From positions 1-26,307 of IMG/VR virus record IMGVR_UViG_3300022074_000324: a stretch of 26,307 nt of DNA; one strand, written 5' to 3'. Every line of letters starts with the position of its first letter. Positions within the stretch are counted from its first letter, which is position 1. The stretch comes from a virus. Under the pieces are notes generated by a model, which did no database searches, was not told the DNA's origin, and saw only the letters and a list, made by a program, of their open reading frames with translations. Made by a program: the position numbers and the translations under genes. Positions 21,059-23,573 of this stretch are shown piece after piece.

Positions 21059-21116
21059 CTTAAATCTCCATTGTTGGTTGGAGCATATAAGATAAGGCTT
21101 ATATAGGAAATGTCAA
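21059..21116 (-). promoter_or_regulatory. Shared promoter/leader block, copy at 21 kb
   Basis: TTGACA (21116-21111), 18 nt, TCTTAT, then the CCAACCAACAA-TGGAG leader and ATG. Same order as the 19 kb copy; the -35 is perfect here. Confidence 0.6.
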
Positions 21117-21536
21117 GCTGAAAAAATCAGGCCAGTTTACAGGGGCGGGGGAATAGTGGGTTGGTTCTAACAACAAACCGCGTTCTGCAAGCTCTATTGC
21201 TTGGGCTCCCGTATATACAAAAACATCTGCATTTTTATTTTGCACAATAATATATGTGGGCGCGTGTTTATGCTGATTAAGCCACGATATTTGATGCGGG
21301 GATAATCTGACGGAATTTCCAGAAGTTGTTTTTAACTCTACAAAATAAAACTTTCCCTGTTCATCACAAACCAGTAAATCAGGAACACCAAGACTAGCCC
21401 AACTTTCGATGCGCGTGAATTTAACATCAGGCCGAAACTTTTTCTGTTGCTTCTTCAGCTTCTGGTAAAAGCTCGACTCCAGATTCTTTTTCTTCTTCTG
21501 GGTCGTTTGGCGTGATATTGATAATGGAAGATCCAT
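21099..21536 (-). CDS. VRR-NUC-like PD-(D/E)XK nuclease (145 aa as ATG-started)
   Basis: Core: FTRIESWASLGVPDLLVCDE (40-59), FYFVELKTTSGN (63-74), LSPHQISWLNQHKHAPTYII, then VFVYTGAQAIELAERG. G-V-P-D with D53 and E67-x-K69 are the PD-(D/E)XK catalytic pattern of VRR-NUC-type endonucleases, with E44 as the early Glu. The likely role is nucleic-acid cleavage in replication or packaging, next to terminase small subunit. The only ATG (21536) overlaps the small terminase by 110 nt and lacks an SD. A CTG start near 21482 (LESSFYQKL) would give 127 aa and fit family length better. Start uncertain. Confidence 0.7.
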   Translation of the reverse strand: MDLPLSISRQTTQKKKKNLESSFYQKLKKQQKKFRPDVKFTRIESWASLGVPDLLVCDEQGKFYFVELKTTSGNSVRLSPHQISWLNQHKHAPTYIIVQNKNADVFVYTGAQAIELAERGLLLEPTHYSPAPVNWPDFFSLTFPI

Positions 21537-22002
21537 GCTGTTCTTTTAATTCCTGTAAAGCCTTCTCAACTTCTTCACGGCTCATACTATCAATAGAACC
21601 GTGGCGAATTTCAGATTTAGTAATATAGATATTTCCCTGCGCTTGCCCGCGTCTATATTCTGCCTGTACCGCGGCTGAATAAGCCCCGTTATCGATAGCT
21701 AAGTCTCTTATCTTCTGCATATCCCGAACATGGCGGGCAAAAGTTATGCCATACTTCTCATCGAGCTCTGCTCTATAAGTTTTAATCGCGGCAACAACAT
21801 TAGGATGTTTAACAGGATTTGTTAGTTCAGAAGCTTTGACGTGTGCAGACCGTTCAGGATAGCCCGCATTAATAGCGGCCTGACGTTTAGTAATCATGCC
21901 GTCATTAGCCACAAATTCTTTTACGAATTTCTCTTGTTTCTGAGACAAAGGGGAATCAACAGTCTTTCTTGGCCTGCCTTTTCCACGTTTTGCGATTTTC
22001 AT
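21427..22002 (-). CDS. Terminase small subunit (191 aa)
   Basis: LSQKQEKFVKEFVANDGMIT, KRQAAINAGYPERSAHVKAS and ELTNPVKHPNVVAAIKTYRA are the 'L..kQe.FvkefV...g....AAi.AGYpe.sA...As.LlnP...p.V...i' helix-turn-helix start of Terminase_2-type small terminases. The middle helical part has GITFARHVRDMQKIRDLAID and AVQAEYRRGQAQGNIY. The acidic C-terminus probably binds the large subunit. It lies upstream of the cassette block, about 4 kb from terL. GAGGGCG lies six to seven bases from the ATG at 22002. Confidence 0.82.
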   Translation of the reverse strand: MKIAKRGKGRPRKTVDSPLSQKQEKFVKEFVANDGMITKRQAAINAGYPERSAHVKASELTNPVKHPNVVAAIKTYRAELDEKYGITFARHVRDMQKIRDLAIDNGAYSAAVQAEYRRGQAQGNIYITKSEIRHGSIDSMSREEVEKALQELKEQHGSSIINITPNDPEEEKESGVELLPEAEEATEKVSA

Positions 22003-22108
22003 TGTTTTCGCCCTCTTATATTGTTCTTATCCTCAAAATGTAGGTTATTTTCTTATTTTTGACAAGCGTAAGGGGAATTATTTATTGTTATCAGATACAT
22101 AACCATAA

Positions 22109-22134
22109 TGTTACACCTCTAAAATGGTGTAACA
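22109..22134. repeat. Inverted repeat TGTTACACC / GGTGTAACA
   Basis: Perfect 9-bp arms separated by 8 nt (TCTAAAAT), a typical dimer-binding operator or origin site. Confidence 0.65.
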
Positions 22135-22191
22135 CAAAAATGCTACAAAAATATTTTCTTAACTATCTGTTATATATACTAAATTCATCAA

Positions 22192-22218
22192 TGTTACATT
22201 TGTTACATTTGTTACATC
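22192..22218 (+). repeat. Three tandem 9-bp iterons TGTTACATT
   Basis: Units at 22192-22200, 22201-22209 and 22210-22218 (last unit ends in C), directly adjacent. Confidence 0.75.
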
Positions 22219-22315
22219 AAAAAAAAACGGAAAAAAACTTTTTTTTATTTTTTGAGCCATATACGGAGCTACAAATAAGAAAATACATATATTTGAAAGG
22301 GATATCTGTAACTTT

Positions 22316-22348
22316 TTTGGTTTTCAAAAGTGTAACAAAAGTAACACC
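22316..22348 (-). repeat. Opposite-strand TGTTAC-type sites
   Basis: CTGTAAC at about 22316, TGTAACA at 22331-22337 and GTAACACC at 22341-22348: reverse-orientation copies of the core of the iterons, on the far side of an A/T-rich stretch. Confidence 0.55.
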
Positions 22349-22423
22349 CCGCCCTGAAACAGGACGAGGTGCACTTAGAACCAACAAACAGAATAAAAGG
22401 AGATCTGCACTATCAACGTAGTC

Positions 22424-22446
22424 CGTGATCCGCGAACCGTCAAGCG
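22424..22446 (-). promoter_or_regulatory. TTGACG promoter-like element with GGATCACG motif
   Basis: Minus strand: TTGACG about 22446-22440, 17-nt spacer, TACGTT. The spacer contains GGTTCGCGGATCACG, the third copy of the dispersed motif. Weak -10; could drive the small terminase message through the iteron region. Confidence 0.3.
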
Positions 22447-22456
22447 TTTTTTTATA

Positions 22457-22717
22457 TCAATGCACCATTTCCTGCGGTTCGTCAGCCGCGGACTGTGCGA
22501 GTTCTTTCGCTACTTCCACCATTTCATCCACGCCATTTTCTGGCATAGACCTGTAGGCACATTCGAGTAGCACGGTTAATATTCCCAACAGTATGAGTGT
22601 TTCGTATTCCGCGCCTTTAGAATCCACATTTTCGGACAGTTGTTCTAGTGAGTTGATACCTATTTCGTACCCTGCGCTAAAATCAGCATGTTCCGTGGTC
22701 ACCGTATCGCTTTTCAT
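22457..22717 (-). CDS. Small acidic helical protein (86 aa)
   Basis: Contains ADFSAGYEIGINSLEQLSEN, YETLILLGILTVLLECAYRS and VDEMVEVAKELAQSAADEPQ. The middle stretch ETLILLGILTVLLECAY is hydrophobic and could be a buried helix or short membrane segment. Unknown family. The ATG overlaps the upstream TGA as ATGA. Confidence 0.6.
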   Translation of the reverse strand: MKSDTVTTEHADFSAGYEIGINSLEQLSENVDSKGAEYETLILLGILTVLLECAYRSMPENGVDEMVEVAKELAQSAADEPQEMVH

Positions 22718-23016
22718 CCTTGAAGAATCCTTGCCCAGTGTGCTTGTATTTCGGAAACCTTATCATGTGCTTCGCGTGAGCGTCCACCTTCGGAGAGTAT
22801 ATTATCGCAGTGAAGGTTAATGATCCGTTGTACGCGGTCCACGGCGTCTTTCCATTGGATACGTTCATCGAATACGGGTCCGACATGCCCGGCATTTTCT
22901 ATGAGGGCTGTTGTCATGTAATCCTCTTCGCTAGGGTAATGTGCGGTAGACATATAATCCCTTTCATTAGGGTATGATTTAAGTGGGTCTGCCCAGTGTT
23001 TTTTATTCATTATCAT
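22714..23016 (-). CDS. Small protein with repeated YPxExDYMxTA units (100 aa)
   Basis: Contains two near-repeats: YPNERDYMSTA and YPSEEDYMTTA (about residues 15-36), then IQWKDAVDRVQRIINLHCDN and a helical end. The repeat is also visible in the DNA as two CCCTAR-type stretches. Unknown function. The start may be ATG 23016 or the ATG two codons later; no clear SD. Confidence 0.6.
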   Translation of the reverse strand: MIMNKKHWADPLKSYPNERDYMSTAHYPSEEDYMTTALIENAGHVGPVFDERIQWKDAVDRVQRIINLHCDNILSEGGRSREAHDKVSEIQAHWARILQG

Positions 23017-23206
23017 TATCCATTTCTATTTCATCATCCATAACCACAAAGACTTGCACCCCTTCATCTTTCAGGTAGGACATAAATTCAACGCCGTCCA
23101 TGATACCTTCGCCTTCAAATATTATTTCAGCTTCTTTTTCTAGCTGTTTTTCTATTTTTTTATTCAGGTGGGGCTTAAAGTCAATAATTTTTGCGGTCAT
23201 ATCCAT
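23003..23206 (-). CDS. Small acidic protein (67 aa)
   Basis: TAKIIDFKPHLNKKIEKQLE then KEAEIIFEGEGIMDGVEFMS, YLKDEGVQVFVVMDDEIEMD. The opening 'akIIdF.ph' resembles short unknown proteins in early regions of phages. Overlaps both neighbours (10-14 nt). An ATG two codons later (23200, ATGA with the upstream stop) is an alternative start. Confidence 0.6.
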   Translation of the reverse strand: MDMTAKIIDFKPHLNKKIEKQLEKEAEIIFEGEGIMDGVEFMSYLKDEGVQVFVVMDDEIEMDNDNE

Positions 23207-23481
23207 CGCTCCAATTCATGTCGTTTATCATACGGGTGGAAAAATTTTGGTTGCCCCTCTTCTTTTATTTTAGCTGTAATGACGGGAGAAGCAACCCAGC
23301 CCTTTATACCTAAGTCAGACTTGCGGTTATATTCATTTGCGGCATTTTCCCAAAATTTGGCGTTTTGTGATTCGCCGTTCCATTCGGCTTCTTCTTGCCA
23401 ATAGCGGCACAACTTCATTGCCCCGTAAAGAGTAATCATGTCTCCCATTCGGGGAGTAAGAACGATTTTAGGAATTTTCAT
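23197..23481 (-). CDS. Small early protein of unknown function (94 aa)
   Basis: Product begins MKIPKIVLTPRMGDMITLYG and continues AMKLCRYWQEEAEWNGESQN, FWENAANEYNRKSDLGIKGW. ATG 23481 has AAGGAGGT seven bases upstream, so the 15-codon longer frame is not used. First gene of the leftward message starting at the divergent promoter. No family known to me. Confidence 0.65.
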   Translation of the reverse strand: MKIPKIVLTPRMGDMITLYGAMKLCRYWQEEAEWNGESQNAKFWENAANEYNRKSDLGIKGWVASPVITAKIKEEGQPKFFHPYDKRHELERWI

Positions 23482-23499
23482 TTTGACCTCCTTATAGGT

Positions 23500-23573
23500 G
23501 TGTTGTATATATGGGAGAAATAACATACTATGTCAAGTTTTTCTTGACAATATATACGACAAGCCTTAGTTAA
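23500..23573. promoter_or_regulatory. Divergent promoters sharing a TTGACA palindrome
   Basis: TGTCAAG (23531-23537), TTTTT, CTTGACA (23543-23549): perfect 7-bp inverted repeat. The left arm supplies TTGACA for the leftward genes (17-nt spacer to CATATA), the right arm TTGACA for the rightward ParB-like gene (-10 unclear, TAGTTA or GTTAAT). One bound protein could block both. Confidence 0.6.

Follow-up and report, generated by a model that had tools for sequence, protein, structure and literature searches.

The array at 22109-22348 and its setting

The DNA analysed here, called the window below, is a viral stretch of 26,307 bases (IMG/VR record IMGVR_UViG_3300022074_000324). Its subject is an array of short repeated sites at 22109-22348, upstream of the gene for the small terminase subunit (TerS, gene terS), which sequence comparison suggests, with a probability of about 0.8, to be a replication origin of the iteron type, with the phage primase as its binding protein. 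The array lies within an intergenic region (22003-22456) flanked by terS on one side and by a small minus-strand operon (22457-23526) on the other, and no supported gene was found in it. There was no Rfam match at 21900-22700, and a scan for sigma-70 promoters gave matches no more numerous than in shuffled sequence.

An earlier note on this DNA had described a cluster of TGTTACA-type sites at this place, and all the elements that it named were recovered, including an inverted repeat of 9 base pairs (bp) and three opposite-orientation sites further on. TGTTACA or TGTAACA (together TGTWACA) occurs seven times in the whole window, six of them inside 22109-22337, and eight GTWAC cores are found in the intergenic region. 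In 5,000 dinucleotide shuffles of 22003-22456, TGTWACA had a mean of 0.15 and a maximum of three copies (0/5,000 reached six), and the GTWAC core a mean of 1.2 and a maximum of six, so that eight were never reached. The description as an AT-rich, gene-free stretch also held, with 69% AT in the intergenic region and 75% in 22109-22348. The tandem units are indeed three, with site starts at 22192, 22201 and 22210, but they are not the perfect copies that had been announced, since the first two read TGTTACATT and the third TGTTACATC. The hairpin at 22372-22344, at the outer edge of the array, is probably the terminator of the small-gene operon 22457-23526. On the other side, the N-terminus of TerS bears a basic AT-hook-like stretch (KRGKGRPRK), of which varied forms are present in most relatives.

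Table 1. Sites, sequence elements and neighbouring genes of the array, in window coordinates.
Feature	Position	Strand	Remarks
Iteron TGTTACA	22109..22115	+	Left arm (22109-22117) of the 9-bp inverted repeat TGTTACACC/GGTGTAACA
Iteron TGTTACA	22128..22134	-	Right arm (22126-22134) of the inverted repeat; opposite-strand site located between terS and the triple; layout kept in relatives
Tandem triple of iterons, 9-bp spacing	22192..22216	-	terS strand reads TGTAACAaaTGTAACAaaTGTAACA
A/T tract beside the triple	22217..22263	.	Candidate unwinding element; longest pure A/T run 22239-22253; element TATATGGCTCAAAAAATAAAAAAA common to relatives
Site TGTAACT	22307..22313	+	
Iteron TGTTACA (plus-strand letters TGTAACA)	22331..22337	-	
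Site AGTAACA	22340..22346	+	
Terminator-like hairpin, 13 pairs, T-rich tail	22344..22372	-	Arms GCACCTCGTCCTG-TTTC-AGGGCGGGGTGT; tail reaches the outermost iterons; similar in close relatives
Terminase small subunit TerS (Terminase_2 / phrog_51)	21427..22002	-	First gene downstream of the array
VRR-NUC nuclease	21099..21536	-	Next gene past terS

Conservation of the array in related phages

The large terminase subunit (TerL) encoded in the window shares 60% identity with its counterpart in Pelagibacter phage HTVC027P and 54% with the one in HTVC023P, and the window represents a piece of a marine phage of the HTVC023P/HTVC027P kind, a genome type of about 55-60 kilobases (kb). HTVC023P-type phages have a wide oceanic distribution (PMC9599517), and the literature searched yielded no description of their replication origin. 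A DNA similarity search of phage records with the window gave no match, and relatives were obtained via proteins. In the long relatives, a SNF2 helicase gene on the opposite strand is followed by two Pam3-like genes, an AEP primase with a PriCT_1 domain, a UvrD helicase and PolA, then by small genes, the array, terS, VRR-NUC, DUF7227, a phrog_1362-like gene, terL and the structural genes. The primase, UvrD and PolA share one early operon, and the primase gene lies about 6-10 kb from the array.

When the array was sought in these relatives, it was present rather than missing. Of 135 distinct regions immediately upstream of terS, 122 contained at least five GTWAC cores, with a median of eight, and 98 of the 135 had a tandem triple whose sites are spaced 8-9 bp apart. 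An A/T-only run of at least 12 occupied part of the 45 bp before the triple in 87 of the 98 triple-bearing relatives, against 4% of random 45-mers, and an opposite-strand site followed downstream of the triple in 97 relatives, mostly 41-43 bp on. What relatives conserve is an A/T tract beside the tandem triple, then opposite-strand sites, and not the symmetry around an AT-rich core that the earlier note had put forward. Each near-complete genome carried one non-coding array; in the long relatives examined the other GTWAC clusters lay in coding sequence, the second-best ones arising for example from Val-Thr codons in structural genes. Two marks of an iteron-type origin are present here, several short and nearly identical repeats confined to a single non-coding locus of each genome, and an AT-rich tract next to them.

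Other words and layouts were observed at this place. Two more distantly related phages have arrays of another word: the same neighbourhood in 023Pt_psg01 (L161:7520-7735) holds a TGGCACA array with 9-bp steps, accounting for seven of the ten copies in its 25-kb piece, and all four copies of CTAGGAAAA in HTVC023P (L163:6436-6525) stand upstream of terS. In three further phages (L132, L044 and L115), the array upstream of terS is enclosed by two outward-facing, mirror-image CTATATAGgctcAAAAAATAAAAAAATATTTTTT elements, in the manner of two divergent promoters.

Array spelling and the wing of the primase

Close relatives differ in the bases next to the core, and they do so over the entire array, the sites reading CGTTACA in L044, L114 and L124, TGTTACA in L115 and TGTTACC in L131 and L133. 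Because these phages have identical N-terminal (DNA-binding) domains of TerS, the specificity must lie in another protein. A switch of this kind was also seen between two nearly identical phages, G010 and G011 (PolA 99%, TerL 98%), with TGTTACA and CGTTACA arrays, respectively; the primase of G011 falls beyond the contig end.

Arrays were classified from DNA alone and compared with the 1220 columns that vary in seven proteins of 17 related phages (the primase, UvrD, PolA, TerS, the VRR nuclease and two small proteins). Where the taxon sets were unequal, normalised mutual information yielded small-sample noise, and the scan was redone on matched taxa. The two best columns of the 1220 were residues 483 (z 6.5) and 481 (z 6.0) of the primase, the next column having a z of 4.9, and primase 483 ranked first of 1574 columns in a family-wide scan. 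Both are adjacent wing residues of the predicted winged helix in the C-terminal domain (about residues 385-513) of the AEP primase, and this wing differs between array types. The primase itself is a protein of about 510 amino acids with AEP and PriCT domains only, UvrD helicase being a separate gene. AlphaFold2 (AF2) models placed 481 and 483 in the first wing strand of the C-terminal winged helix, beside the recognition helix, and the modelled AEP core resembled the CRISPR-associated Prim-Pol (Foldseek E 1e-8). A search of the primase profile against the sequences of solved structures returned no real match.

Sites were read as TGTWACX with a leading T in an orientation-free table. With Lys at 483, a pyrimidine (C/T) was the majority base at X in 23/23 arrays, and Arg at 483 went with a purine (A/G), the majority not being a pyrimidine, in 12 of 13. 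Among the Lys483 primases, Val or Ser at 481 went with W=A (15/15) and Leu or Gln with W=T (8/8). Read in the frame that the triple fixes, the arrays showed all four combinations, namely Val-Lys with TGTAACY, Leu-Lys with TGTTACC, Val-Arg with TGTAACA and Leu-Arg with TGTTACA, and two near-minimal pairs illustrate the change at each residue (G010 MLLR/TGTTACA vs L205 TLLK/TGTTACC; L217 RLLK/TGTTACC vs G023 TVLK/TGTAACY). A rule linking wing residues and spelling had been fixed in writing ahead of the retrieval of new contigs. It predicted the array spelling correctly in seven of seven of these, most of them from one close group, and a second batch of six further lineages agreed in full with the rule on residue 483. 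In a tree built without the winged helix, residue 481 had changed at least five times and residue 483 at least four times, and among well-supported independent pairs the array followed the residue in nearly every random pairing. Fisher values for the association (1e-6 to 1e-8) ignore relatedness. Taken together, these data suggest that the array spelling is most likely set by the primase wing, 481 corresponding to the middle base and 483 to the outer base. As six of the eight sites of the window array end in A, the rule predicts Arg at 483 in the primase of the window, which would be encoded off the contig.

Two groups stand beside this comparison. The CGTTACA class (L044, L132) is outside it, since these contigs end before the primase; for the primases of this class the rule would predict Arg at 483. 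The lineage of L264 and L352, with the primase wing VVLAIKRRP, has Ala at 483, and the sequence upstream of its terS is free of GTWAC cores; it may have an array that uses another word.

A candidate origin, its alternatives and its place among known systems

We propose that the recognition helix and wing of the AEP primase C-terminal winged helix would bind the 7-bp iterons TGTWACX, several copies together, in duplex form. The primase would thereby be loaded at the array beside the A/T-rich tract, which would unwind, and would lay the first primers for PolA with the UvrD helicase of the same operon, so that binding would start replication. Several observations weigh against this model. The window contig is without the primase gene, its replication genes being outside the 26 kb, and in relatives the array stands about 6-10 kb from the proposed initiator gene, whereas the SaPI/SCCmec origin adjoins the initiator gene. 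Structural matches of the winged helix were all of middling Z. With just three well-supported independent pairs per residue, a tree-based sign test cannot reach 0.05, and the class boundaries were chosen after a first look at the data. Individual cases also depart from a clean pattern, one Arg group (G003) having mixed outer bases, G006 being a tie, L443 carrying its triple in flipped orientation and G025 having Gln at 481. Cumulative GC skew, which the earlier note had offered as a check, shows no turn at the array; it is uninformative about the origin, because the skew merely tracks gene direction genome-wide.

The same note had left a choice between an initiator-binding origin and a master operator. 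The origin is favoured, since a single conserved array lies beside an A/T tract and varies in spelling together with the primase wing, and the dispersed operators that a master operator predicts were rejected, the same site not recurring at several promoters of the long relatives examined. A local operator, at which a phage regulator, possibly the primase itself, would switch terS and the late operon, fits the location of the array in the terS promoter region and the promoter-like TATATA elements at both edges in L132-type relatives. We consider it unlikely, as 6-12 sites over about 250 bp plus a long A/T tract exceed an ordinary operator, no second cluster is found at other promoters, and the covarying protein is a primase and not a regulator; it is possible that the array doubles as origin and control of terS transcription. 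Sites of the pac or cosB type are often located near terS, and a packaging site bound by the small terminase encoded alongside would agree with the adjacency of array and terS in nearly all relatives and with the Terminase_2 helix-turn-helix of TerS. Reading of the sites by TerS is contradicted by the identical N-terminal domains that go with different spellings; moreover, zero TerS columns were among the best 15 of the clade scan, and in 023Pt_psg01 and HTVC027P terS occupies the opposite strand and is separated by other genes from the array or partial array, which stands upstream of a different gene. A packaging role is accordingly very improbable.

The NrS-1 primase-polymerase initiates at 5'-TTTGGTTA-3' (PMC8718748), which has GGTTA in common with GGTTACA arrays. 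The sites might likewise be single-stranded starts that the primase recognises with its AEP catalytic or helix-bundle portion, and not duplex sites for the winged helix, but they occur on both strands with strict spacing, and a scan of all primase columns placed the covarying ones in the C-terminal wing and not in the AEP/helix-bundle part, which leaves this explanation with little probability. Chance clustering in AT-rich DNA, for which the 69% AT of the region could be invoked, is refuted by the shuffles and by the conservation of the array in 122 of 135 relatives, and can be dismissed.

A candidate origin read by the primase provides precise origin and initiator candidates for these phages, together with a putative recognition rule of two residues and two bases with which later contigs agreed. 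The pattern may extend further. Three tandem GTTACA were found in at least 120 stretches of viral contigs, most with dense arrays and many without an AEP-PriCT_1 primase on the fetched piece, and unrelated phages (L399, L417, L423, L429, L436, L441, L447, L457, L488, L380 and others) carry 6-17 GTTACA cores per 350 bp, often beside VapE, DUF927/Cch, D5-PrimPol or NrS-1-like genes, some with a C-terminal winged helix like the primase tail. Ten large proteins picked for their nearness to such arrays included a Toprim protein type as well as VapE, DUF927 with Cch HTH_56, D5-PrimPol and NrS-1-like proteins. In raw counts over the 95 large proteins located close to 61 of these arrays, DUF5906 (12) and VapE (9) were common, and so were terminases. 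A literature search for GTTACA with iteron terms found no prior report of the array. We tentatively raise the idea, which at present is rather doubtful, that unrelated phage replication proteins (AEP-PriCT, VapE, DUF927/Cch, D5-PrimPol, NrS-1-like) have in common a portable module for origin recognition, made up of GTTACA-core iterons and a small winged helix at the C-terminus, with a compact wing code and frequent spelling switches. Repeated switches of origin spelling between nearly identical phages raise the question of their driver, which in Vibrio satellites is an origin-directed nuclease (PMC8263062). If such a module exists, iteron spelling would be readable from protein sequence, and switching might come from conflict with origin-targeting competitors or parasites.

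Tandem iterons beside an AT-rich unwinding region are a feature of lambda O and of iteron plasmids, which use a dedicated initiator and unrelated repeats, whereas here the initiator would be the primase. The alpha protein of phage P4 is known to recognise its origin with a winged helix, and the same is suggested for pRN1 ORF904 (PMC4234260). As in P4 alpha, a primase-containing replication protein is predicted here to bind short origin repeats through a winged helix; in P4 alpha, the primase is of the Toprim type and forms one protein with a helicase, unlike the AEP primase with PriCT_1, the separate UvrD and the TGTWACX iterons of the present phages. Because it lacks the fused helicase, the HTVC-type primase is not a member of the P4-alpha-like family and would, by analogy, only work like it. 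ORF904 of pRN1 is likewise an AEP primase with a C-terminal winged helix (PMC4234260), unlike the present system in its fused SF3 helicase and its stem-loop origin without iterons. The origin iterons of SaPI and SCCmec are bound by the duplex-binding C-terminal domains of Rep and Cch2 (PMC7581432), and structural comparison with SaPI Rep and SCCmec Cch/Cch2 (PDB 8tch, 5dgk), with matches of middling Z, showed a winged-helix-like arrangement that the phage primase may share; those initiators are helicases, and the origin directly follows the gene that encodes them, whereas here a primase would act on an array about 6-10 kb away beside terS. For RepA of the Vibrio PLE, experiments showed that initiator and origin must match (PMC8263062), a covariation like the one described here; in that system entire RepA_N domains are exchanged as modules and the iterons measure about 30 bp, in contrast to two wing residues that change here in an otherwise nearly constant protein and genome. 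Compared with these known cases, the candidate origin would thus be distinguished by an AEP primase without fused helicase, by an array far from the primase gene beside terS, and by a two-residue wing code.
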